Of a DNA stretch of 53,320 nucleotides, positions 18,619 to 30,526 are shown piece after piece. A model generated the notes under the pieces. The model was given only the letters and a program-made list of their open reading frames with translations, had not been told where the DNA came from and ran no database searches. A program made the translations under genes and the position numbers. Each line of letters opens with the position of its first letter. Position 1 is the first letter of the stretch. The stretch comes from a bacterium. GTDB taxonomy: Bacteria; Patescibacteriota; Minisyncoccia; JAUYLV01. The stretch is taken from positions 1 to 53,320 of the forward strand of contig JAUSGO010000033.1 in NCBI GenBank assembly GCA_030649025.1. The letters run 5' to 3'.

Positions 18619-18675
18619 ACGGGCTGATTCAAAAATTCTCAAATGCATCGATACCATACTGCCAATGATCAAAAA

Positions 18676-19770
18676 ATGGAACGGGGAAGATTAAAATTCA
18701 GTTCCCTACTATTTGTTATTTGTTATTTGCTATTTGCTTCTTTTTTTGGGCGTGGCGCGCATGCCCAGTCTCCCGGCTTTTCCGTTTCTCCCGTAAAAAC
18801 ATTCACCACTCTCCGGCGCGGAGAAACTTATCGGGGCGTTTTCGAGATCGTAAATAAAAGTTCCGTACCTCTGCCTCTTGCGGTAAAGGCGGAGTTCTTC
18901 GGCATTTCGGATGAGTTGGGTTCCGTGGTGTTTCGCGATTCATTGGGCTTTGCCTCCGGAGACAATCCCGATACGTGGCTCGTGCTGTCGAATCCCTTCT
19001 TATTGCTTGGACCAGGAGAGTTCCGCCCGGTTCCCTACACGCTCACCGTTCCAGCCGATGCGGCTTTCGGCACCTATACGATAGCGGCGGTTTTTCAATC
19101 GAAGTTCCCCGAATTGACCGAAGCAAAAAACAGCGCCCAGCTTCTTCCGGGAATAGGCGCGCTCTTTTTTGTTGACGTGGTGTCCCGGCCGGGAGAGGCG
19201 CTTGCGGAAAAAGGCCAGCTTACGGTAAAGGATTTCTCCATTCCGGAGAGCCAAATAGTGCAGTTCAGGCCATTCGGCGCCTCACTCGTCCAGACCCTGA
19301 AACTAGATCGCATATCGTTGGCTTTTATTGAAGGAAGTCCTCTCACATTCACCGCGCGGCTTTTCAATGAAGGGCGGTATCTGGCCCGTCCTACAGGACA
19401 CGTTTCCATCTCTAACATTTTAGGGAGCGAGATAGGGCGCGTTCCGTTTCCCGATGGGGCGGTTCTGCCGGAAGCTTTGCGCGCGTACGCGATATCGTTT
19501 ACAAGAACGCCCCGTTTCCCGTCCCTGGGCTTCATTCCCGATTTCTTGCAAAGAGGGTTTCTTCCCGGCCGCTACACGGCCCGTCTTGTCCTTGACGCCA
19601 ATTCCGATTATGTGGCCTCTCCGGGGCCTTCCGTCATCACGTTCTGGGCATTTCCAAGGCTGTTCGTGTTATCCACAGCTCTACCCCTTACATTCCTTTT
19701 GTTATTCGTGGTATTATATAGAAAGCGATTCTTATCCGCCTTAAAAGTACTTCTATGGCGAAAATCATAA
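18676..19770 (+). CDS. Membrane-anchored WxL-interacting-like protein (DUF916-like), copy 1
   Basis: 364 aa from the ATG at 18676 (an in-frame ATG at 18643 is possible). Signal peptide RLKFSSLLFVICYLLF...AHA|Q; the ectodomain opens GFSVSPVKTFTTLRRGETY followed by VFEIVNKSS, the pattern of DUF916/WxIP beta-sandwich domains; the C-terminus has one membrane segment (about 328-350) and a short basic tail. In Firmicutes such proteins pair with WxL surface proteins; here the stop overlaps the start of the next gene, a WxL-like secreted protein. The hydrophobic core of the signal peptide is encoded by four tandem 7-nt units (18710-18737). Assignment rests on domain pattern and layout. Confidence 0.65.
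   Translation: MERGRLKFSSLLFVICYLLFASFFGRGAHAQSPGFSVSPVKTFTTLRRGETYRGVFEIVNKSSVPLPLAVKAEFFGISDELGSVVFRDSLGFASGDNPDTWLVLSNPFLLLGPGEFRPVPYTLTVPADAAFGTYTIAAVFQSKFPELTEAKNSAQLLPGIGALFFVDVVSRPGEALAEKGQLTVKDFSIPESQIVQFRPFGASLVQTLKLDRISLAFIEGSPLTFTARLFNEGRYLARPTGHVSISNILGSEIGRVPFPDGAVLPEALRAYAISFTRTPRFPSLGFIPDFLQRGFLPGRYTARLVLDANSDYVASPGPSVITFWAFPRLFVLSTALPLTFLLLFVVLYRKRFLSALKVLLWRKS
18710..18737 (+). repeat. Heptanucleotide tandem repeat in signal-peptide codons
   Basis: Two TATTTGT units followed by two TATTTGC units, 28 nt without interruption, inside the coding region. As 7 is not a multiple of 3, a change of one unit shifts the frame of the surface protein. Confidence 0.8.
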
Positions 19771-21071
19771 AACGGTATTCTTTCAAAGTGTTTGCTTTGG
19801 TTTTGGCCATTAGCATGTTCGGTTTCTATTTTTCCTTTGTAGACAGGTCACAGGCGGCACAGGTTTCAAGCCGTAGCGATACGCTCAATAACTCCGGAGC
19901 CTCGTTTAGCTTTGTGCAACCCACCGCTGTAACGTCCAATCACACGTTCGTTTTCACGATAGAAAACAGCCTGGATACTGTTGGATGGAACGGGGCAGAT
20001 AGCAAAAGCGCGTCGGATACCATCGTGATCACTATTGATCCTGACGCAAGCGGCTTTGATTTAACCGGAATTGATTGCGGAGATGTGGACCTTGCTTTTG
20101 GCGCAATACCCGGCACATCAGCCAGTATTTCTGATAATGCAAATGGCGGCAGCCGCACGACACGGACAAGTTGCCCGGGGTCAGCGACGACCTGGGGCCT
20201 TTTCATTGATTCTTCGGCGGATACCCTTACGTTTTACACGCCAACAGCGGTGCAGACGCATGTGGTGACCAGCACCATTGTGAATGTTCGCGTTGGCCTT
20301 AACGCAACGTTTCAAGACACGGGGAACGAGGTTATTACCAATCCTACGGCCGTAGGAACCAAGAAGATGCGTGTTGGCGGCACATTTGGAGGGACCGGCG
20401 ATATGCTTGTTGCTATTTTGAGCGGCGTTGAAGTGTCGGCAACGGTAGCCGAGACGCTTACTTTCAACATTTTTGGGCTTCCCGGTCAGGGTCCTGCGGG
20501 AAACATTAATAACATGGCTTCTTGTAATTCGATTCCGGGAACAACCGACGATGATGACAGCGAGACCATTACGCTTGTTACCACCACGGCAACCTCGGTT
20601 CCTTTTGGAGCAATCACTTCAGGTAATGTATATCAAGGATGCCAACGTCTTGCGGTTTCCACCAATGCGGCGGGAGGCTATACTGTAAGCCAGCGTTCAA
20701 ATAACTCCCTGAAAACCACTGGTGACGCGATTATTCCTGATACCGTATGCGATGGTACCCCGAATTGTACGCCATATATAGAGGACACCTGGACTAGTAA
20801 TGCCCCGGGGCTTGGCGTGAGCTGTAAGAGTTCCACCAATACATCCTCATCTTGTTCAGCATCAAGTCCAAACTATGCTAATGGTGCTAACTTTACTCCC
20901 TTTGCCAACGAGAGCGCAGGATTTGTCTCCTCAACGCGGTTTTCCACCACCTCGGTTGCTCCATGGGGAGAGATTCAAATAAAAGCAAAGTATCGCCTGA
21001 TAATTCCGGGTACCCAGGCCGCAGGAACATACACGAATATCGTTAATTACATTGCAACGCCTATATTTTAG
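19755..21071 (+). CDS. Secreted WxL-like surface protein, copy 1
   Basis: 438 aa, overlapping the previous gene by 16 nt. Signal peptide with site near QAAQ (about residue 35); mature part begins VSSRSDTLNNS. The N-terminal 200 residues share a domain with the protein at 22445 (VSSR.D.L.NS; TSNHT; IDCGDVD; VVTSTIV...R.G.NATFQ; TNP). The C-terminal part is rich in Thr, Ser and Asn with paired Cys and ends GTYTNIVNYIATPIF, the kind of terminal beta strand seen in WxL-like and CPR surface proteins. Probably a secreted cell-surface or fibre subunit. Followed by a strong terminator. Confidence 0.65.
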   Translation: MAKIIKRYSFKVFALVLAISMFGFYFSFVDRSQAAQVSSRSDTLNNSGASFSFVQPTAVTSNHTFVFTIENSLDTVGWNGADSKSASDTIVITIDPDASGFDLTGIDCGDVDLAFGAIPGTSASISDNANGGSRTTRTSCPGSATTWGLFIDSSADTLTFYTPTAVQTHVVTSTIVNVRVGLNATFQDTGNEVITNPTAVGTKKMRVGGTFGGTGDMLVAILSGVEVSATVAETLTFNIFGLPGQGPAGNINNMASCNSIPGTTDDDDSETITLVTTTATSVPFGAITSGNVYQGCQRLAVSTNAAGGYTVSQRSNNSLKTTGDAIIPDTVCDGTPNCTPYIEDTWTSNAPGLGVSCKSSTNTSSSCSASSPNYANGANFTPFANESAGFVSSTRFSTTSVAPWGEIQIKAKYRLIIPGTQAAGTYTNIVNYIATPIF

Positions 21072-21112
21072 ACCTCGGCGCATTCCCACAAACTATTGCA
21101 AAAGTTGTGTAT

Positions 21113-21138
21113 AAACTCCCCTTGTAAGGGGAGTTTTT
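21113..21138 (+). terminator. Terminator behind the first surface pair
   Basis: ACTCCCCTT pairs with AAGGGGAGT over a 2-nt gap and is followed by T5. It separates the two WxIP-like/WxL-like modules. Confidence 0.8.
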
Positions 21139-21169
21139 GGTGTGGTATGATAATTTTGCAGTTTTTGTG

Positions 21170-21301
21170 CCCCCACACTAATCGTCTGCCTATAGGATGT
21201 CTATAGGTTTGTTACGAAGTCTAGTTTTTTAGTGAATACTTTGTTCTTCGAGAGTGTTACTTGTGACGCTTCGCGTCGCAAACAGACAATTAGTGTGGGG
21301 G
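21170..21301. repeat. MITE-like inverted-repeat element, copy 2
   Basis: 132 bp. CCCCCACACTAAT (21170-21182) pairs exactly with ATTAGTGTGGGGG (21289-21301); then GTCTG/CAGAC continues the stem past one mismatch. The interior aligns with copy 1 (2513-2640) in patches. It lies between a terminator and the next surface gene, and no target-site duplication is obvious. Confidence 0.7.
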
Positions 21302-21314
21302 TGTGAGCTAAATT

Positions 21315-22235
21315 ATGCAAAAACTATTTTTGTGGCTATCTTCTTTTTTTGTGGGCATGAGCATGCCCATTTTTGCGTTGGCGCAGTCGTCAGGAATTAC
21401 GATTTCACCCCTTACCTTTGAACTTACGGCCGACCCCGGAGAGATGGTTTCAAATAAATTACTGGTTACCAATCCAACCGGAGGCTCTCTTATTTTTGAA
21501 ATGGAAGTGCAGGATTTCACGGCCGCGGGAGAAGGAGGAGAAGTTATCGTGGGGCCCGATGTGGATGAAACCCTTTCCATGGAGCGATGGGTTTCAACGA
21601 ATCCCATGCGTTTTACCCTGGAGCCCGGAAAAACCCAAGTGGTTGATTTTACCGTCTCGGTGCCCCAGGACGGCGAGCCGGGGGGGCATTATGCTACGAT
21701 TCTTGCGACCATCAAGGGCTCTACGGACGTAACGGGGTCTGCTATATCGCAAAAAGTTGGCTCACTGGTGCTTCTTTCCGTCTCCGGATCCATCCGCGAG
21801 GAGTTATTTATCCGTGAATTTTCCGTACCGTCTTTTTCCCAGCAGGGTCCCATATCGTTCCTGGTGCGTTTTGAGAATATCGGTTCGGTGCATGTGATGC
21901 CGATGGGCTTTGTCACCATCGCGGATTTTTTTGGGAACAAGGTTGCGGATGTTCCGCTCTCTCCGAAAAGAGTTTTGCCGGGCAATACGAGAAAAATAGA
22001 GGTCATGTGGGATAAGCGCTATCCTATTGGAAAATTTACCGCGACGCTCGTGGGAAGTTTTGGGATTTCAAACACGCCTATTTCGGCGGTCACGACATTT
22101 TGGGTCTTCCCGTGGAAAATTGCGCTTGAAGTTCTCGGAGGACTTATCGTGCTTCTTGTGGTGCTTATCAAAACGCGGAAACGCTTCCGTGCGGCCTTCA
22201 ACATATTGTTTAAAGGGGAACATGCTTCGTTATAG
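21315..22235 (+). CDS. Membrane-anchored WxL-interacting-like protein (DUF916-like), copy 2
   Basis: 306 aa. Signal peptide (cleavage near ALAQ, about residue 24), ectodomain opening SGITISPLTFELTADPGEMV then KLLVTNPT, with PGGHYATILATI in the middle as in DUF916 domains; C-terminal membrane segment about 268-290 and a basic tail. Paralogue of the protein at 18676, sharing the layout signal - beta domains - membrane anchor - basic tail. Placed ahead of the dockerin-tagged secreted protein, so it may tether or help export that protein. Confidence 0.65.
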   Translation: MQKLFLWLSSFFVGMSMPIFALAQSSGITISPLTFELTADPGEMVSNKLLVTNPTGGSLIFEMEVQDFTAAGEGGEVIVGPDVDETLSMERWVSTNPMRFTLEPGKTQVVDFTVSVPQDGEPGGHYATILATIKGSTDVTGSAISQKVGSLVLLSVSGSIREELFIREFSVPSFSQQGPISFLVRFENIGSVHVMPMGFVTIADFFGNKVADVPLSPKRVLPGNTRKIEVMWDKRYPIGKFTATLVGSFGISNTPISAVTTFWVFPWKIALEVLGGLIVLLVVLIKTRKRFRAAFNILFKGEHASL

Positions 22236-22260
22236 CTTCCGCTTTGCCTGCAAAGCGAAG
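22236..22260 (+). terminator. Hairpin behind copy 2 WxIP-like gene
   Basis: CTTCCGCTTTG pairs with CAAAGCGAAG with one bulge. No T run follows, so it may be an mRNA 3' structure rather than a terminator. Confidence 0.35.
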
Positions 22261-22338
22261 CAGATACGTGGCATTACCGACTCTCTTGTGCAAATTTTCC
22301 CCTAGTTCGTAATCAAGCCGCGAGGTACACTAAGCCTG

Positions 22339-22429
22339 CCCGCCACAGCCCCTCTTCCGATGTTTGACACGCATCCGATGCCCCGAAGTACTATCGGAAG
22401 ACCGCCGCATCTTTTATGGCGGGCTTTGG
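22339..22429. repeat. Palindromic spacer element
   Basis: AAGCCTGCCCGCCA pairs with TGGCGGGCTT; the inner CTTCCGAT pairs with ATCGGAAG. It fills most of the gap before the dockerin-bearing gene. No ORF inside. Confidence 0.55.
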
Positions 22430-22444
22430 TAAGTAGGAAGGACC

Positions 22445-23908
22445 ATGGCGAGTCCTATTTTTTATCTTAATAACAAGGGAAAGAACCTACGTTCTCAATG
22501 GAAGAACGCGCTTGTTGTTGTAATTGGAATGAGCGCGTTCTTTTCTTTTTATTTTGGACGAACGCTCATTGTTCAGGGCGCACAGGTCTCAAGCCGTGGC
22601 GACGAGCTTTCCAACTCAAATATATCCGCAACATCGAACCATACGCTGACCTTTGTCGTACAGGATGATATCGCCGCGGGAGAGACGCTCACGATAGATT
22701 TCCCTGATTTTTCGGGGCTGGCGGACATTGACTGCGGAGACGTTGACGCCTCAACGTCCGTTGAATTCGGTTTTAACTCCGCCTCGCATCTTTCCAGCTG
22801 TGCCGCAACTGCAACGGCATGGGGCTTTGCAGTATCGGGAACGGCGTTGACCTTGACGGCTCCGACCGCTCCGGGAGTGTATGTGGTAACGAGCACCGTC
22901 GTTATCATACGCATCGGATCCAATGCGACGTTCCAGGAACAAGGAACGAGCTGGATGACCAATCCTGCAAGCGCAGGAACAAAATTCGCGAACATATCCG
23001 GAACATTCCAGCAAAATGTAGTGATTTCTGGCATCGTTGTTGCCATTGGCGAAGGCTCTGCAGTGAGTGCAACGGTTCCGGGTCCCTCGTTAACTCCCAC
23101 GCCTACGCCCGCGCCAACGCCGACTCCCGCTCCGGGAGGAGGGGGAGGAGGAGGGACCATCTTGCCTCCTGCGGGCGAGACAGCGGTAACGCTTGCCGGC
23201 AAGGCCTATCCGCGGGCATTTGTTACGGGGCTCAAAAATAGCCAGGTCGTTTCAACCGTCAGCGCGGGGGAAGACGGCATGTTTGAGATAAAACTCAAAG
23301 GGATACAGCCCGGAATTTATACATTCGGCGTATTTGCGGAAGATGCAAAAGGGCGTAAATCGCTTACCCTCTCGTTCACCATCAATGTCATTAAAGATCT
23401 GACGAACATGGTCAGCGGTATTTTTATTCCGCCGACCATCATCACCAACCGCGACATCTTTTACCCGGATGAGACGCTTGAAATTGATGGATATGCGTTC
23501 CCAAAAAGCAATGTCAATGTCGTATTTAATTCCTCGCATGAAATTTTAGAGCGCGTCTCGTCTGACGCAGACGGCCTATGGTTGCTCGCCTATTCTTTGC
23601 AAAATCTCGGCATTGGAGACCACTCGACGCGCGCAAAGACGCAAGCGCCGGATGGGGATCAGAGCACTTTTTCGGAAACGCGGCTTTTTCGCATTTTCCC
23701 CAAAGGCGTGCCGCTTCCCACTCCTACGGGGCCCGTATGTCATGGGGCGGATCTGAATAACGACGGAAAGGTGAACCTTGTTGATTTTTCCATTTTGCTC
23801 TTCTGGTGGCAGTCGCGGAATCCCCAGAATCCCTGCGCCGATATCAATAAAGATGGTATTGTGAACCTAGTTGATTTCAGTATTATGATGTTCCAGTGGA
23901 CCCGGTAG
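22445..23908 (+). CDS. Secreted surface protein with WxL-like, Ig-like and C-terminal type I dockerin domains
   Basis: 487 aa. Signal peptide about 1-44; residues 45-215 repeat the WxL-like domain of the protein at 19755; residues 216-240 are a Pro/Thr then Gly-rich hinge; two Ig-like/carboxypeptidase-regulatory-like domains follow (about 245-325 and 330-420); residues 428-487 form a dockerin, two EF-hand-like calcium loops (ADLNNDGKVNLVDFSI and ADINKDGIVNLVDFSI) with D1, N3, D5, G6 and D12 in place. The two loops are near-identical, as in classical dockerins. SD-like AGGAAGG lies just before the ATG. Four cohesin-like anchors follow at once on the same strand, so this protein is the obvious dockerin partner. 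Confidence 0.8.
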   Translation: MASPIFYLNNKGKNLRSQWKNALVVVIGMSAFFSFYFGRTLIVQGAQVSSRGDELSNSNISATSNHTLTFVVQDDIAAGETLTIDFPDFSGLADIDCGDVDASTSVEFGFNSASHLSSCAATATAWGFAVSGTALTLTAPTAPGVYVVTSTVVIIRIGSNATFQEQGTSWMTNPASAGTKFANISGTFQQNVVISGIVVAIGEGSAVSATVPGPSLTPTPTPAPTPTPAPGGGGGGGTILPPAGETAVTLAGKAYPRAFVTGLKNSQVVSTVSAGEDGMFEIKLKGIQPGIYTFGVFAEDAKGRKSLTLSFTINVIKDLTNMVSGIFIPPTIITNRDIFYPDETLEIDGYAFPKSNVNVVFNSSHEILERVSSDADGLWLLAYSLQNLGIGDHSTRAKTQAPDGDQSTFSETRLFRIFPKGVPLPTPTGPVCHGADLNNDGKVNLVDFSILLFWWQSRNPQNPCADINKDGIVNLVDFSIMMFQWTR

Positions 23909-23910
23909 GC

Positions 23911-24095
23911 GCGGGCAAGCGGTTGCATTCTTTTCGCTTAACGCTCCGGATGAGAAAACCAAACAAAGCCTCGCAACGTAGTATTGCGAACTCCTCGCCC
24001 CCGGCTCGTCAGACAGCGCAATACTACGGCTCGGCTTTGATGGCTTTAACTCATCCGCCGCTAATCCGCTCAAAGAAAACAACCGCTTGCCCAGA
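23911..24095. repeat. 185-bp palindrome between dockerin and first cohesin gene
   Basis: Arms of about 75 nt: GGGCAAGCGGTTG ... CGTAGTATTGCG against CGCAATACTACG ... CAACCGCTTGCCC, with matching blocks GGATGAG/CTCATCC between. The central loop is about 28 nt. It is the largest palindrome in the window. Confidence 0.7.
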
Positions 24096-24155
24096 GGTGA
24101 ATAAATTTTCTATTTGAAAAATAAAAAATCCGTGGCATGGATGGAAAAAACTAGT

Positions 24156-25334
24156 ATGCGGTCATACCTAAAACATCTTATTAATATCCTGTTGTTGGTT
24201 GTTGGTTGTTGGTTGTTGGTCGCAGGCGTCGCTAATGCTTCCGCGCTGTTTTTCAATCCGCAGGACGGGATAGAGGTTGAGGAAGGAGAGAGTATAGTGG
24301 TGGAGGCAAGACTTGATACCGAGGGGAACTCCATCAATGCCATTGACGCACTGATGCATTTTTCTCCGCAAGCATTTGAGGTGGCTGACGTTTCCCGTGG
24401 CGACTCGGCGATCACGCTCTGGATAACAGAGCCGCTTATCGATAATGCCAACGGAACGGTGCGTTTTATGGGAGGAATTCCTTTGGGGGCGTCTTTCACT
24501 TCCGGGCTTATCGCAAAAATCACCCTGCAGGCGCGTGCCGTTGGAGAATCCATGCTGGGTTGGGACAGAGCTTCTCAAATTCTGCTCAATGACGGGCGGG
24601 GGACGAAGGACGAACTGGAGGTGCTTGAAACATCTGCGAAGGTCACGCCGGCTCTTACGGACGTTCCCCGCATTTCCTCCTCATCCCATGAAAATCAATC
24701 GAAATGGTACAAGGGAACAACGCTTGTCGTGTCCTGGATTCCTGCGAAAGAAGCATTATACAGTTATGTGCTTGACCATGATTCGCGTAGCGTTCCGGAC
24801 ACGCTTGCGGATACTCCGCAGGGCGAACTTCGCTTTGACGGATCTTTAAAATACGAAGGCCTTACGGAAGGAGTGTACTATTTCCATCTGCGGGAAGGCG
24901 TTAAAGAGCCTGACGTGGTCCGATGGAGCCGCACAAGAACATTTCGCGCGCAAATCGATACCACGCCGCCGAACGCGCTCTCTGCCCAAATCGGCTCGGA
25001 CCCTTCCTTGTATGAAGGAAAATTTTTCGTGTCATTTTCCGGGAGTGATACTTTGAGCGGCACAGACCGGTATGATGTTTGGGAGGTGTCGGGCGACTGG
25101 ACGGAGCGTGCTATCTCTCCGCACAAACTTCTCGGCCAAGAAACTGACGCGCCAATAAAGGTACGGGTTTTGGATAAAGCCGGAAATCAGCGGGAAATTC
25201 TTGTTTCCTATCCCCCAAAGCCCGGAAAGGAACCCATGACCCTCTATGAGATTATTGGGGGGGTAGTTGTTTTAGCGGCCCTGCTTATTGCTGGATGGAT
25301 TTGGCGATATCGCAGAAAGAGAAGCAAGCTTTAA
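24156..25334 (+). CDS. Membrane-anchored cohesin-domain protein 1
   Basis: 392 aa from the ATG at 24156 (in-frame upstream starts at 24141 and TTG 24114 exist). Signal peptide, then a cohesin-like domain (about 30-165: ALFFNPQDGIEVEEGES, NAIDALMHFSPQAFEV, GTVRFMGGIPLG, LLNDGRGT), an Ig/FN3-like module (YYFHLREG..., DTTPP) and a second one, a membrane segment (about 365-384) and a short basic tail. Of the four cohesin proteins this is the only one without a proline-rich C-terminus. Signal-peptide codons consist largely of four exact GTTGTTG units. The cohesin call rests on motif pattern and the adjacent dockerin. Confidence 0.72.
   Translation: MRSYLKHLINILLLVVGCWLLVAGVANASALFFNPQDGIEVEEGESIVVEARLDTEGNSINAIDALMHFSPQAFEVADVSRGDSAITLWITEPLIDNANGTVRFMGGIPLGASFTSGLIAKITLQARAVGESMLGWDRASQILLNDGRGTKDELEVLETSAKVTPALTDVPRISSSSHENQSKWYKGTTLVVSWIPAKEALYSYVLDHDSRSVPDTLADTPQGELRFDGSLKYEGLTEGVYYFHLREGVKEPDVVRWSRTRTFRAQIDTTPPNALSAQIGSDPSLYEGKFFVSFSGSDTLSGTDRYDVWEVSGDWTERAISPHKLLGQETDAPIKVRVLDKAGNQREILVSYPPKPGKEPMTLYEIIGGVVVLAALLIAGWIWRYRRKRSKL
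24191..24218 (+). repeat. Heptanucleotide tandem repeat (GTTGTTG x4) in signal-peptide codons
   Basis: Four exact, uninterrupted GTTGTTG units inside the open reading frame of cohesin protein 1. One unit more or less would shift the reading frame before the cohesin domain. Confidence 0.85.
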
Positions 25335-25373
25335 AAGGGAGGCCACTTCTCCATAACCCTCTTAAATTGGTCA

Positions 25374-25382
25374 TGGTACAAT
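25374..25382 (+). promoter_or_regulatory. Extended -10 promoter, leaderless, for cohesin protein 2
   Basis: TGGTACAAT with the -10 hexamer at 25377-25382. The ATG at 25389 lies 7 nt after the hexamer, so the transcript would begin at the start codon. No clear -35. Confidence 0.5.
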
Positions 25383-25388
25383 AGTATT

Positions 25389-26792
25389 ATGCCTTTTTTG
25401 CGTTTATTTTTCTCTTTTTTGCTTATTGTAGGGGTTTTAAAATCAGCAATTCCGGCCCGGGGGGCGGAAAGTGCCTCGTTGTCTTTGGCACCGGCATACG
25501 GCGCATATCTGGTAGGAAGCACTTTCGAAGTATCCATATTTCTTGATACCCATGGAAGCCAAATAAATGCGGTTGAGGTACAGATGACCTATCCGCCGGA
25601 CATTCTACAGATTATCAAGCCCGCAGGCGGCACGTCGTTCATTCAAACATGGTTTTTCCCGCCGACATTCTCCAATAAAGATGGAACGCTGGCGCTTGCC
25701 GGCGGAATTGCGCCCGGAGGCATCAACACATCAAACGGGCTTATTACCACCGTGACCTTTCGTGCGGTAGCCCCGGGAGATGCCGCTCTTTCCATTTTAA
25801 AGACGTCAAAGGTCCTTATGCACGACGGCAAGGGGACCGATATTCTGGGTTCCCGGGGGAGTGCGGTTTTCACCATTCGCGTTCGTCCTCCGGAAGGTCC
25901 GAATGTTTCTTCGCCCACAAACCCGGATCCGAACCGATGGTATCAAAATAACGCCCCGCTTTTTACCTGGCAGCCGACAGAGGGGGGCGGCGGCTACAGT
26001 TTCTCGCTGAACGAGAACTCGGAAGACATTCCTCTGCCGGAAGTGCTTACTGGAGACCTGGTGAAAGCGTACTCCGATGTGAAAGACGGTATCCAATACT
26101 TTCATATTCGAGTTTACAAGGACGGCGCGTGGAGCGGCGTAACGCATCTTCCCGTACGGATCGATTCAACTCCACCCCTCCCGTTTACTCCGCGAATTGA
26201 GTATGCGCCGCAACTGGGCGCGCCGCCGATAGTGTTTTTTGAAACCAAAGATGCGCACGCAGGGGTAGACCACTACGCCGTCAAGGTCATTCGAACGGAT
26301 GAAACAAGCGGCATTGAAGAGGACATAACGCCGTTTTTTGTGGAAACCGAAAGTCCCTATAAAGTTCCGGTGAGTTTTCCCGGAAAATACACGGTGGTGG
26401 TGCGCTCGTTCGATAAAGCGGGAAATACCCGGGATGCGGTCGTGAATATCGTTACGCCGACGGTGGCGTTACTCTCCGATCAGGGCATTAAATTCAAAAA
26501 CTATTTTATTCCTTTCAAGGTGGTCTATATGTTCTTTGGGTTTTTGCTTATCGCGCTCTTCTTGTGGGGCGTGTATCTTCTGCGCAATGTCCGCGCGATA
26601 CGCTTGCGCACCACGCGCGATATTGCCTCGCTCTCCCAGGAGATGCAAAAAGAATATTTGCGGTTCGGAGAGCACTTCACACACGAATTCGAGAATAAAA
26701 ATCCTCAACAAAACTCGTACCAGGTGCCGCAAGGGAAGATAGAAGAACCGGCTTCCGAGGCTCCGGACGCGCCACTACCCCCGCCGCAATAA
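25389..26792 (+). CDS. Membrane-anchored cohesin-domain protein 2
   Basis: 467 aa. Signal peptide (about 1-24), cohesin-like domain (27-160: ASLSLAPAYGAYLVGSTFEVSIF, NAVEVQMTYPPDILQI, ALAGGIAPGGINTSNGLI, MHDGKGTDILGS), Ig/FN3-like modules (WYQNNAPLFTW, YFHIRVYKDGAW, IDSTPP; then VRSFDKAGN), membrane segment about 376-398, then a 69-residue cytoplasmic tail ending APLPPPQ. Close in layout and sequence to the protein at 28794. Predicted anchor for dockerin-bearing partners; the conserved tail suggests an intracellular contact. Confidence 0.75.
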   Translation: MPFLRLFFSFLLIVGVLKSAIPARGAESASLSLAPAYGAYLVGSTFEVSIFLDTHGSQINAVEVQMTYPPDILQIIKPAGGTSFIQTWFFPPTFSNKDGTLALAGGIAPGGINTSNGLITTVTFRAVAPGDAALSILKTSKVLMHDGKGTDILGSRGSAVFTIRVRPPEGPNVSSPTNPDPNRWYQNNAPLFTWQPTEGGGGYSFSLNENSEDIPLPEVLTGDLVKAYSDVKDGIQYFHIRVYKDGAWSGVTHLPVRIDSTPPLPFTPRIEYAPQLGAPPIVFFETKDAHAGVDHYAVKVIRTDETSGIEEDITPFFVETESPYKVPVSFPGKYTVVVRSFDKAGNTRDAVVNIVTPTVALLSDQGIKFKNYFIPFKVVYMFFGFLLIALFLWGVYLLRNVRAIRLRTTRDIASLSQEMQKEYLRFGEHFTHEFENKNPQQNSYQVPQGKIEEPASEAPDAPLPPPQ

Positions 26793-26795
26793 CAA

Positions 26796-26888
26796 TGCAA
26801 AATAATGGATGCGCGAAGGTTTTATGTGTAAAATCTTCGCAAGATTCCAAAATTTTGATTTTTGACTTTTGATTTTTACATTTGTGCA
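26796..26888. repeat. Palindromic spacer sharing a roughly 70-bp unit with the lysS leader
   Basis: A hairpin GCGAAGGTTTTA/TAAAATCTTCGC (26814-26841) is followed by AGATTCCAAAATTTTGA and TTTTGAT-type heptamers. The same order and nearly the same bases occur at 46160-46232 before lysS. In both places the next gene starts right behind. Confidence 0.7.
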
Positions 26889-26891
26889 GGC

Positions 26892-28715
26892 ATGAAGTTA
26901 TCTACGAGAAGTTCCATTCTGCTTATTGGTATATGTTTGCTTGGGTTCTCTACCCGTATACTTTTTCTGCCTGCGCAGGCCGCCGGAGCTACTCTTTTTA
27001 TTTCTCCGGCTACCGGAACCTCGGCCGTTGGAGTGAATTTTTCGGTTTCCTTCAGACTTAATTCCGGTGGCGTCTCTATTAATGCCGCAGAAGGCAATCT
27101 TGCATATGAACCCGATGAGCTTGAAGTCGTCTCGATTTCAAAATCCGGGTCCATTTTTAACATCTGGACGCAAGAACCCGTTTTTTCAAATACTGCCGGC
27201 TCCATCAGTTTTGGCGGCGGCGTTCCCTCGCCCGGGTTCAACGGTTCCTCGGGTCTTATCTTTACCGCAACGCTGCGGCTCAAAAAATCTGTAAGCACGA
27301 CACTCCGGTATGTATCCGGCTCAGTCCTTGCAAATGACGGGCAAGGCACAAATGTGCTTGCCGCAAGCCAGAGCGCGACATTTTCTCCGGGTGTCCCAAA
27401 GCCGAAACCAACGCCGGTTCCTTCCCAGGTTCCTATCACACTTCCTTCTCCGCCGCTCATATCCTCTCCCACTCATCCGGTAAATCTCGTTGAACATCCC
27501 GATGCGACGCTCTGGAGCAATAATAACGATCCGGAATTCAATTGGAGATCGGATCCGGATGCCAACAGTTTTTCGTATGTGTTTAACCGCGATCCCTCGA
27601 CGGTTCCCGATACGGTATCGGAAGGGTCGTTGACCGCCAAAGTGTATTCTGATGTTGAAGATGGCATCTGGTTCTTCCATATTCGCTCCCAGAATGCAGG
27701 CGGATGGGGAAGCATGGTGCACTATGAAGTGCACATTGACGCAACACTCCCGGAGAGTTTCGATGTGAATATAGTGGGCGGACGAGATATTTTTGATCCG
27801 GAGCCGGAAATCCAGTTCGGTACCAAAGACATCACATCGGGCATTGACCATTACATAGTTCGACTGGGAAGCGCCGAGCCCCGCATAATAACTCCCGCCG
27901 AAGCCGGACATCCCGTTGGGCTCGGTACGCTTTCAGGGGGTATCCATGCGGTGCGGGTGCGTGCGTATGATCGTGCAGAAAACCATCGCGAGGCGTTTGC
28001 GGAATTTACTATCGGGACGCTGGAACCCCCCGTCATTACCGCATACGCGAAAACCATCTCATCGGACGAGGTCATATTTCTTGAAGGGAAAGCAATTCCG
28101 AACATCACCGTTATCGTTGCCATTGAACGTGTTGACGGCACCCAGCGAGTTACCCGCGAGGTCGCAAGTGACGCAGACGGCAGTTGGACGTTCCTGGGAA
28201 AGCAATTCCGGGGCGCGGGCCAGTGGCGCATCACGGCCCAGTCGAAGAATGCACAGGGCGCGGTCTCGGAAAGAAAAGCGGAGGTTGCTTTTGAGATCCT
28301 TTCCTCGGTAATACACATCGGCAGCTACACGCTCACCTATGCTTCCGCGTATGGCATGGGAGGAAGTGTCCTTTCGCTGTTATCGGTTATCGTTCTCATA
28401 GCCTTTCTCCACTACAGAAAAAAAATCAAGAAGTTCCACAAAAGAGTCCTTAAGGAAGTCACGGAGGCCGAGTATGCGGTGCGCGCGGGTTTTCAGACCC
28501 TGCGCGGGGATGTGATTGAAGAATTGCATACCATAGATGCCCTACAGGCCATGCGTACGCTTATGCCCGAGGAGACGGCAAGACGGGAAAAGCTTTTGAG
28601 GGATCTGGCGTTCATTGAATTTCAGGTAACCAAGGAAGTTCAGGACATTGAAGGGGTACTTAAGGGTTACTCGCTTTCCAAAGAGGATTTGCCGCCCCCA
28701 CCCCCGCCGCAATAG
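26892..28715 (+). CDS. Membrane-anchored cohesin-domain protein 3
   Basis: 607 aa from the ATG at 26892. Signal peptide, cohesin-like domain (about 29-160: ATLFISPATGTSAVGVNFSVSFR, NAAEGNLAYEPDELEV, SISFGGGVPSPGFNGSSGLI, ANDGQGTNVLA), Pro-rich linker, Ig/FN3-like modules (WSNNNDPEFNW, WFFHIRSQNAGGW), and an extra Ig-like domain (LEGKAIPNITV...VASDADGSW) akin to that in the dockerin protein. One membrane segment (about 487-506), then a 101-residue, partly helical and charged cytoplasmic tail ending DLPPPPPPQ. The longest of the four, and the one with the largest cytoplasmic part. Confidence 0.75.
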   Translation: MKLSTRSSILLIGICLLGFSTRILFLPAQAAGATLFISPATGTSAVGVNFSVSFRLNSGGVSINAAEGNLAYEPDELEVVSISKSGSIFNIWTQEPVFSNTAGSISFGGGVPSPGFNGSSGLIFTATLRLKKSVSTTLRYVSGSVLANDGQGTNVLAASQSATFSPGVPKPKPTPVPSQVPITLPSPPLISSPTHPVNLVEHPDATLWSNNNDPEFNWRSDPDANSFSYVFNRDPSTVPDTVSEGSLTAKVYSDVEDGIWFFHIRSQNAGGWGSMVHYEVHIDATLPESFDVNIVGGRDIFDPEPEIQFGTKDITSGIDHYIVRLGSAEPRIITPAEAGHPVGLGTLSGGIHAVRVRAYDRAENHREAFAEFTIGTLEPPVITAYAKTISSDEVIFLEGKAIPNITVIVAIERVDGTQRVTREVASDADGSWTFLGKQFRGAGQWRITAQSKNAQGAVSERKAEVAFEILSSVIHIGSYTLTYASAYGMGGSVLSLLSVIVLIAFLHYRKKIKKFHKRVLKEVTEAEYAVRAGFQTLRGDVIEELHTIDALQAMRTLMPEETARREKLLRDLAFIEFQVTKEVQDIEGVLKGYSLSKEDLPPPPPPQ

Positions 28716-28791
28716 CAGCTTATAGCTGTTAGCTGATAGTTTATGGGAATTTCGGTCCAAAAGCTAAAAGCTAAAAGCTAAAAGCTATAAG
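28716..28791. repeat. Palindromic spacer with AGCTATA/AAAAGCT heptamer arms
   Basis: Left arm CTTATAGCTGTTAGCTGATAG, right arm three AAAAGCT units plus ATAAG; the arms are complementary. Same motif as 42696-42786 and 45580-45666. It fills the gap before cohesin protein 4. Confidence 0.7.
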
Positions 28792-28793
28792 CG

Positions 28794-30170
28794 ATGAGAT
28801 TCTCTTCAAAAAAACTACTCCAGATTTTTCTTGTGCTCGCTGTTATCAGCGCACAGTTTTTATTCGGTTCCTCATCGCAGGCGGCCGAAGGTGCTTCATT
28901 GCAATTTTCTCCCTCAAGCGGGACATTTTTTTTGGGAAGCACTTTTAATGTGTCGCTCACGCTTAATACGGGAGAAGCGGCGGTAAACGCCCTGGAAGTG
29001 CAGGTGAAATTCCCTCCAGACAAATTACAGGTGGCAAGTCCTTCTATTGGCACGTCGTTTATCTCTATTTGGGTCACCCCCCCAAGCTACTCGAACACCG
29101 AAGGCACGCTTACGTTTCGCGGCGGGGTGCCCAATCCCGGCATTATCACTTCTAACGGCGTTATCTCTACCGCGACGTTCCGTGCAAGAGACACGGGGGA
29201 GGCGGAATTGGAGTATATTGTGACATCCCAGGTTCTTGCGAACGACGGCAAGGGCACGAATATTCTAAAAAGCCGCGGCATTGCCCGGTTTACTATTGTT
29301 ATTCCCCCTCCCGAAGGACCCGAGGTGTTTTCTCCAACCCAACCGGATCCGAATGTGTGGTATAAAAAGACCGATGCGGCATTTTTTTGGAAAAGCGGAG
29401 AGAGCGTTGATGGGTTCAGCTACGCATTAAGCCAGGATCCATTCGAGACTCCCGACGAGATTTCCGAAGGCGTAAATACCTCTGCGACATTCTCGAACAT
29501 TCTCGACGGCATATGGTATTTTCATATCCGTTCCCATGTCGGTGATGTGTGGGGCGGCGTGACGCATTACCTTATACGTACTGATCGGGGACTGCCCGCG
29601 GCTTACACACTCTCCATAATTCCAAAAGGACCGCTCACCCCGCTTGAACATCCGCTAGTTACGTTTTTTACTACCGATGAAACGAGCGGCATGGACCATT
29701 ACGAAGTGCGCATTGCCAAATTAAGCGGGGAGGAAGAGAGTCGTTCCGTTTCGTTCTTTACCGAGGAAACAAGCCCCTTTGCGTTTCCGGTTGTTGAGCC
29801 GGGCACCTACCAGGTGGTGGTACGTGCGTTTGACCGGGCAGGCAACACGCGCGATTCGCTGGAAAAAATTGAATTAACGCCGCCCCAGCCACAGCGGTTT
29901 ACCAAAGACGGTTTTCGGGTTTATGCCATGATTATCCGATGGACATGGGCGTATCTGTTTCTTGGTCTTCTTTTGCTTCTTTTGCTTTTTTTGGTGTGGC
30001 TTTTGCGCCACAAACACTATACGCGCGAGGAAGAATTGCAGAAAAATCTTACCGAAACCGAAGAGAAACTTCTGCAAGAATATCAGGAGATGTATCAGCG
30101 CGTTCGGACGTATCGGACGGCTCCTCCGATTGACGAGAGTTCTCTTCCCCCCCCGCCCCCGCCGCAATAA
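28794..30170 (+). CDS. Membrane-anchored cohesin-domain protein 4
   Basis: 458 aa. Signal peptide ending near QAAEG, cohesin-like domain (27-160: ASLQFSPSSGTFFLGSTFNVSLT, NALEVQVKFPPDKLQV, TLTFRGGVPNPGIITSNGVI, ANDGKGTNILKS), Ig/FN3-like modules (WYKKTDAAFFW, WYFHIRSHVGDVWGG; VRAFDRAGNTRDS), membrane segment about 382-404, and a 54-residue tail ending SLPPPPPPQ. Closest relative in the window is protein 2 (25389), which suggests duplication. Last gene of the cohesin series. Confidence 0.75.
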   Translation: MRFSSKKLLQIFLVLAVISAQFLFGSSSQAAEGASLQFSPSSGTFFLGSTFNVSLTLNTGEAAVNALEVQVKFPPDKLQVASPSIGTSFISIWVTPPSYSNTEGTLTFRGGVPNPGIITSNGVISTATFRARDTGEAELEYIVTSQVLANDGKGTNILKSRGIARFTIVIPPPEGPEVFSPTQPDPNVWYKKTDAAFFWKSGESVDGFSYALSQDPFETPDEISEGVNTSATFSNILDGIWYFHIRSHVGDVWGGVTHYLIRTDRGLPAAYTLSIIPKGPLTPLEHPLVTFFTTDETSGMDHYEVRIAKLSGEEESRSVSFFTEETSPFAFPVVEPGTYQVVVRAFDRAGNTRDSLEKIELTPPQPQRFTKDGFRVYAMIIRWTWAYLFLGLLLLLLLFLVWLLRHKHYTREEELQKNLTETEEKLLQEYQEMYQRVRTYRTAPPIDESSLPPPPPPQ

Positions 30171-30181
30171 TATCCTATTTT

Positions 30182-30526
30182 GTGAAAAATCTTTTCACTA
30201 TTCATGTTGAAACCCGTGTTGGTGCCGCGATCATTCTTTGCTGTGCGGTCCTGGTTTTTTCGTTGGTAATGCGCGCCATATCAAATTTTTCGAGTTTTCT
30301 TATTCTGCTCGAAGCGGATACGCCTATTGCAAAAACGGTTGTCCGCGCCGAACACGACCGTATCAACCAGTGGCTGCAAGAACAAGGCCTGAATGCGCAC
30401 GGCGACGCTCCCGATACGGTCTACGAGAATGGTTCACCGCTTTTTGACGAAGGAGAAGACAAGCCCATTGACCGCTATGCCTATCTTGTGAGAAAATTCC
30501 CGAATAAGCCGTGGCACATACGGTAA
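30182..30526 (+). CDS. Small single-pass membrane protein, unknown function
   Basis: 114 aa from a GTG start, 11 nt behind cohesin protein 4. One membrane segment near residues 15-37, then a soluble domain with AEHDRINQWLQEQGL and DRYAYLVRKFPNKPWHIR. I do not recognise a family. Its place at the end of the cohesin series, with almost no gap, suggests a link to that system. Confidence 0.6.
   Translation: MKNLFTIHVETRVGAAIILCCAVLVFSLVMRAISNFSSFLILLEADTPIAKTVVRAEHDRINQWLQEQGLNAHGDAPDTVYENGSPLFDEGEDKPIDRYAYLVRKFPNKPWHIR

Follow-up and report, generated by a model that had tools for sequence, protein, structure and literature searches.

A probable cohesin-dockerin docking system in a conserved surface-protein gene cluster of Patescibacteria

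What does a bacterium of the Patescibacteria do with a secreted dockerin protein and four membrane-anchored cohesin proteins, encoded side by side? How their surface is made and how they cling to their hosts is a main open question for this huge group, and the source bacterium itself is tiny and probably host-attached. The locus lies in a stretch of 53,320 nucleotides, here called the window, which corresponds to contig C33; the genome has 1.23 Mb, with an estimated completeness of 100% and contamination of 3%. It consists of a run of genes at positions 18643-30526, all on the + strand, and begins at 18643 instead of the 18676 given in an earlier note on this DNA. The run is flanked by a cyclophilin-type isomerase gene and, on the opposite strand, by a gene recognised from its sequence as that of an FtsH-like protease, and has the following features.

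18643..19770, + strand: WIP1, WxLIP-like protein with signal peptide, extracellular domains and C-terminal membrane helix (lineage WIP HMM, 5e-74; hydrophobic helices at residues 17 and 336)
19755..21071, + strand: PIL, secreted pilin-like protein of two beta-sandwich domains, with a C-domain that weakly matches NCBIfam CPR_Pam_pilin_C
21315..22235, + strand: WIP2, WxLIP-like membrane protein, the most conserved neighbour and the anchor of the synteny scan
22445..23908, + strand: DOC, secreted protein of 487 aa with a C-terminal dockerin (residues 430-487; Pfam and lineage models)
23732..23905, + strand: dockerin domain of DOC with two calcium loops, the sole dockerin found in the genome
24114..25334, + strand: COH1, 'first' class cohesin (residues 38-179), membrane helix near 375, basic tail of 13 aa
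25389..26792, + strand: COH2, 'mid' class cohesin (residues 24-165), membrane helix near 374, tail of 75 aa ending in poly-Pro
26862..28715, + strand: COH3, 'last' class cohesin (residues 38-175), Big domain (392-488), membrane helix near 498, tail of 101 aa
28794..30170, + strand: COH4, 'mid' class cohesin (residues 29-170), membrane helix near 386, tail of 54 aa
30182..30526, + strand: small membrane protein that ends the run (E 9e-30 to L076_9781)

The membership of the small membrane protein in the system is uncertain, and its only relative is found at the same place in a genome of the same family.

The dockerin is identified by Pfam Dockerin_1 (PF00404), which matches residues 436-481 of DOC at 27.0 bits over a cut-off of 22.9 (E 5e-6), so that the earlier description of a secreted protein with C-terminal type I dockerin repeats holds. 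The repeats, DLNNDGKVNLVDFSILLFWW and DINKDGIVNLVDFSIMMFQW, are identical at 14 of 20 positions, and both EF-hand-like calcium loops (DxNxDGxxNxxD) are complete and separated by a short linker. Both loops are likewise complete in 49 of the 62 dockerins from the fetched loci. Loop positions 10-11 are the positions of partner recognition in known dockerins; the two repeats of a protein agree at them in 20 of these 49, against 3.6 in shuffled sets, a count that is inflated by kinship. According to the lineage models, the genome contains one dockerin and four cohesins, every one of them in this window, while the same models find four dockerins and seven cohesins in the same-family genome. The idea that the cohesins display several dockerin-tagged proteins encoded elsewhere is contradicted by this single dockerin, found with both Pfam and the lineage model.

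The identity of the cohesins is less evenly seen by the Pfam cohesin model (PF00963, cut-off 24.1), the check that had been proposed for the four ectodomains: COH4 passes it with 32.7 bits, COH3 and COH1 stay under it with 20.4 and 19.0 bits, and COH2 (25389-26792) has no PF00963 match in the Pfam search. All four align together, however, and the lineage cohesin HMM, which was built partly from them, finds them at 8e-40 to 3e-51. COH4 also matches a cohesin of known structure, 4uyp, at E 1e-5, and a family profile search retrieves cohesin chains at E 2e-4. All four proteins have an N-terminal signal, one cohesin per polypeptide and a C-terminal membrane helix with a K/R-rich inner flank, which is followed by tails of very unequal length (13, 75, 101 and 54 aa in COH1-COH4). 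The earlier note had described the four genes in this way, and its signal, cohesin, helix and cytoplasmic tail stand; the Ig-like modules that it added are convincing only in COH3 (Big_13) and weak in the others.

The fold was predicted with AlphaFold on the DOC-COH1 orthologue of the same-family genome (G001:C40, L076:2626-3606), whose genes are in frame, so the intergenic stretch was read as a linker with only stop codons read through (N = 327). In this model the dockerin has pLDDT values of 88-95 and the cohesin of about 90-98, and the linker is of low confidence. The top 50 PDB matches found by Foldseek are all cohesin-containing chains, with a target TM of up to 0.79 for the G001 orthologue of COH1. 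The best match is 4dh2, the OlpC cohesin of Clostridium thermocellum taken from a cohesin-dockerin complex (E 4e-11, target TM 0.74), and 2xdh, a non-cellulosomal cohesin of Archaeoglobus fulgidus, comes sixth. Unrelated folds, which would have spoken against the cohesin reading, are not what the orthologue model of COH1 gives: its fold is the jelly-roll of a cohesin. The pTM of the dockerin-linker-cohesin model is 0.67, an indirect sign that is consistent with a predicted interface between the two domains, as our own simple estimate for N = 327 is about 0.50 for unplaced domains and 0.61-0.65 for docked ones.

The four cohesins are not interchangeable copies. A tree was built from the cohesin domains of 29 loci (85 domains, 142 columns), and many of its forks are not resolved. 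One branch (96/90) separates all 29 'first' cohesins, which are those directly after the dockerin, from the rest, and the position labels change 7 times over the tree, against 40.4 times in shuffles. The cohesin classes are thus specialised paralogues of long standing, as opposed to recent copies. COH1 belongs to the 'first' class, COH3 to the 'last' class, and COH2 and COH4 both fall in the 'mid' class and appear to be a duplication that the sister genus shares. The inner tails differ between classes, being basic and mostly 3-20 residues long in the 'first' class and extended, often coiled-coil-like, in the 'last' class, in which related motifs such as SEKFIGKEIKDIEKELE are kept across families. 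These preserved long tails are what would favour transmembrane signalling as the main function, with the cohesins as receptors whose coiled-coil-like tails report docking and with the surface structure as secondary. We give this explanation little chance, as no known signalling domain is present in the tails and those of the 'first' class, with only about 3-20 aa, mean that signalling cannot be a function common to all.

The pairing of the two modules extends far beyond this genome. A search of the genus gave a single genome. A sample of 384 genomes of the class was examined with Pfam models: cohesins are found in 82, dockerins in 144 and both in 60, an association with an odds ratio of 7.1 (Fisher P 1.5e-13, uncorrected for phylogeny). 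In 38 of the 45 class genomes where both are listed, belonging to 22 families, they lie within 8 kb of each other. Neighbouring pairs are on the same strand in 66 of 66 cases, and 50 of them have the dockerin upstream. Of the 82 cohesin-bearing genomes, 22 have no Pfam dockerin match, a figure to be read with the fact that the Pfam model misses true dockerins such as that of L076. With the lineage cohesin model, matches at E 1e-6 or better occur in 140 of 380 sampled genomes of the phylum and in 123 of 314 genera.

The order of the genes is conserved too. A scan of GTDB contigs was anchored on the WIP2 family, so that loci were not chosen by their cohesins or dockerins, although the query alignment of WIP2 itself comes from loci first picked for one or the other. 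Among the 22 closest WIP2 loci (at least 38% identity), titled Parcubacteria, Nealsonbacteria, Uhrbacteria or Paceibacterota or left without a name, cohesins are downstream in 22 and a dockerin lies between in 21, and the order on one strand is WxLIP, pilin-like, WxLIP, dockerin, cohesins. Of the 23 loci with less similar WIP genes, only L144 has both modules, and L151 has a dockerin. The layout is therefore a trait of a single branch within a broader WxLIP-like family.

These results bear on two explanations in which the dockerin and cohesins of one cell would not hold each other. In one of them, the cohesin folds are generic Ig-like adhesins or receptors, the dockerin is a calcium-stabilised tail, and their neighbourhood reflects a shared pathway and not binding. 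Cohesin folds without known dockerin partners do exist, as in TMEM132 (PMC6030884), and the 22 class genomes with cohesins and no Pfam dockerin match point the same way; the symmetry of the two loops, in which the recognition positions agree, the adjacency and co-occurrence of the modules and a pTM consistent with docking make this explanation unlikely. In the other, docking takes place in trans, and cohesins or dockerin bind partners on a host or neighbouring cell and produce attachment. It is in line with the obligate episymbiotic life of cultivated Patescibacteria (PMC12206443), with the attachment of Paceibacteria to methanogens (PMC10936435) and with the existence of archaeal cohesins, for example that of Methanosarcina acetivorans in our control set. 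A dockerin that adjoins cohesins in nearly all loci, and always on the same strand, is instead what a pair within the cell predicts, and trans docking is accordingly given a low probability.

Such a pair is known from cellulosomes, which digest cellulose, and the locus had been called cellulosome-like. The comparison holds for the binding chemistry and fails for the architecture, which has no enzyme and only one cohesin per protein. The absence of a glycosidase from the locus, also stated earlier, is confirmed by the Pfam search, in which neither a glycosidase nor a CBM was found among the ten locus proteins. There is no scaffoldin with several cohesins per polypeptide in the window, and no dockerin-bearing glycoside hydrolase in the genome, whose sole dockerin is on a non-catalytic protein. 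A cellulosome is thus ruled out for the genome as assembled, with one dockerin and no enzyme. A scaffold of the same kind, in which the cohesins would collect dockerin-tagged hydrolases, has a precedent in a Microgenomates genome with cohesin, dockerin and glycoside hydrolase genes that was read as a cellulosome by its authors (PMC9123182); here it is highly improbable, given the non-catalytic dockerin protein, the single cohesin per polypeptide and the lack of a glycosidase or CBM match in the locus. In addition, ten other sampled dockerin proteins of Patescibacteria have no confident enzyme domain.

The partners of the pair suggest a surface structure. Pfam WxLIP_PGBD matches 10 of 11 relatives of the WIP proteins, with a best value of 2e-9, which supports the WxIP-like partners of the earlier note; WIP2 of the window itself reaches 13.1 bits with this model, below the cut-off of 27.3. 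The name WxL-like, given as a family to the secreted partner, is not sustained, as its C-domain has no Pfam WxL match: 40 PIL C-domains searched against this model gave no match at E up to 1, and PIL was rejected as a WxL member with neither a Pfam match nor a PDB profile match. The nearest named model for the PIL C-domain is NF058581 CPR_Pam_pilin_C ('Pam pilus system pilin subunit'), at 20.3 to 23.2 bits with a cut-off of 55. The PIL C-domains of genomes G000, G001, G114, G240 and G256 align with it over most of the length, at 20-38 bits and so below the same cut-off. Some proteins of about 210 aa consist of this C-domain only, and it is also terminal in proteins of up to 2139 aa. DOC is built from a PIL-like N-domain (residues 56-218), two Big-type domains (237-325 and 332-423) and the dockerin. 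Homology of its N-domain to that of PIL, seen here and at several further loci, suggests that DOC may link a PIL-type surface structure to the cohesins; most relatives of DOC are without this domain, so the link to a fibre is not general. The fold of PIL predicted with AlphaFold has two beta-sandwiches, for which Foldseek gives weak matches to SdrE, antigen I/II and the basal pilin EbpB (TM up to 0.28, rmsd near 25 Å) that do not amount to an identification.

Taken with the gene order, an enzyme-free plug and four membrane sockets within a conserved cluster resembling those for surface fibres lead us to the reading that the dockerin-cohesin pair probably serves to anchor a surface structure on the cell. 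In this non-cellulosomal system, which we consider somewhat better supported than not, docking would secure the secreted surface protein DOC to the cytoplasmic membrane; a surface role had been proposed before, and the present results support it. The dockerin of exported DOC would bind calcium and fold, and would then be gripped by cohesin heads that project from the membrane on Ig-like stalks. The other end of DOC consists of beta-sandwich domains, one of which is here homologous to PIL, and DOC may for this reason be a base or linker through which a PIL/WxLIP fibre or adhesin of the surface is attached non-covalently to the cell. Cohesins of the different classes, with short tails or with long, partly coiled-coil tails, would serve as separate anchors, some of which might oligomerise or signal inside the cell. 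A broader form of the same proposal, which we regard as possible and rather doubtful, is that of a calcium-dependent, non-covalent clamp widespread in Patescibacteria and used in place of a sortase or cell-wall domain, which holds and possibly releases a fibre or adhesin for attachment to other cells, and in which the cohesins are specialised receptors, some reporting to the cytoplasm.

Several known systems share features with this one. The anchoring proteins OlpA and OlpC of C. thermocellum (4dh2, 3ul4, 1ohz) likewise have a surface cohesin head that receives a type I dockerin, but they serve enzyme complexes, whereas the cohesins of the window are single-pass membrane proteins with no enzymes and one ligand in the genome. 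The modules of A. fulgidus (2xdh) and Clostridium perfringens (2w1n/2jh2) likewise show the cohesin fold outside cellulosomes, and such non-cellulosomal cohesin and dockerin modules are reportedly reviewed by Peer et al. in 2009. To our knowledge, no non-cellulosomal system joins one dockerin and 2-5 membrane cohesins in a WxLIP/pilin-like cluster.

The WxL clusters of Firmicutes, which encode WxL proteins together with WxLIP (DUF916-DUF3324-TM), also place a WxLIP-like membrane protein beside a secreted beta-sandwich protein, and their pattern of small and large proteins is similar to that found here, where long proteins encoded elsewhere share the PIL C-domain (PMC10599100). Unlike in those clusters, the PIL partner of the window has no Pfam WxL domain match, and the paper that describes them names neither dockerin nor cohesin (PMC10599100). 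In the Patescibacteria, Southlakia epibionticum, a cultivated Saccharibacterium, has an essential dockerin-domain envelope protein, SEML1_0315, for which glycan targeting was suggested by its authors (PMC10633639); the dockerin is its feature in common with DOC, and the cluster may connect to this protein. Candidatus Shapirobacterales BG1-G2 expresses both cohesin and dockerin genes, and thus has both modules in one CPR genome as here, read there as a cellulosome, unlike in our case (PMC9123182). The claim that the arrangement is not a described one therefore largely stands for the cluster itself and not for cohesin and dockerin proteins of CPR bacteria, to which brief reference has been made (PMC9123182, PMC10633639). 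A search that most of the subscription literature lies outside found neither a paper describing such a cluster in CPR bacteria nor one about the Pam pilus. The conserved order across many families turns scattered 'cellulosome' annotations of CPR genomes into a specific attachment system that can be tested, with dockerin and cohesin domains that are short, soluble and easily expressed.

A second type of locus in the class has cohesin and dockerin in one scaffoldin-like polypeptide (L082, L097, L090, L104, L113, L115, L077), in some cases directly adjoining within about 250 aa, and beside these genes are small cohesins with an N-terminal helix anchor and FN3-dockerin proteins. The sequences suggest that the proteins of this type may be self-assembling head-to-tail chains. 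No enzymes were found in the cases checked, and loci of this type support the view that the pair serves more generally in surface assembly.

Other observations concern the same genome. Proteins of 1291 and 1372 aa that end in the PIL C-domain are encoded at L103 (G000:C14) and L102 (G000:C17); the former adjoins another WIP gene, with no cohesin or dockerin beside it, so a WxLIP/pilin-like system is present in this genome also without those modules adjoining. A search of a plasmid collection gave no match. The gap between DOC and COH1 (23909-24100) contains a long palindrome with a predicted hairpin of -83.8 kcal/mol (z -7), for which no Rfam family was matched; it is a repeated palindromic element, found again on contigs C3 and C27 at about 70% identity. 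Positions 1-1282 of the window hold a partial bacterial 16S rRNA gene that is cut by the contig end. The cytoplasmic tails of COH2 (26750-26792), COH3 (28680-28715) and COH4 (30135-30170) have poly-proline ends, PLPPPQ once and LPPPPPPQ twice, and among relatives a similar end is found in a single cohesin of the same family.
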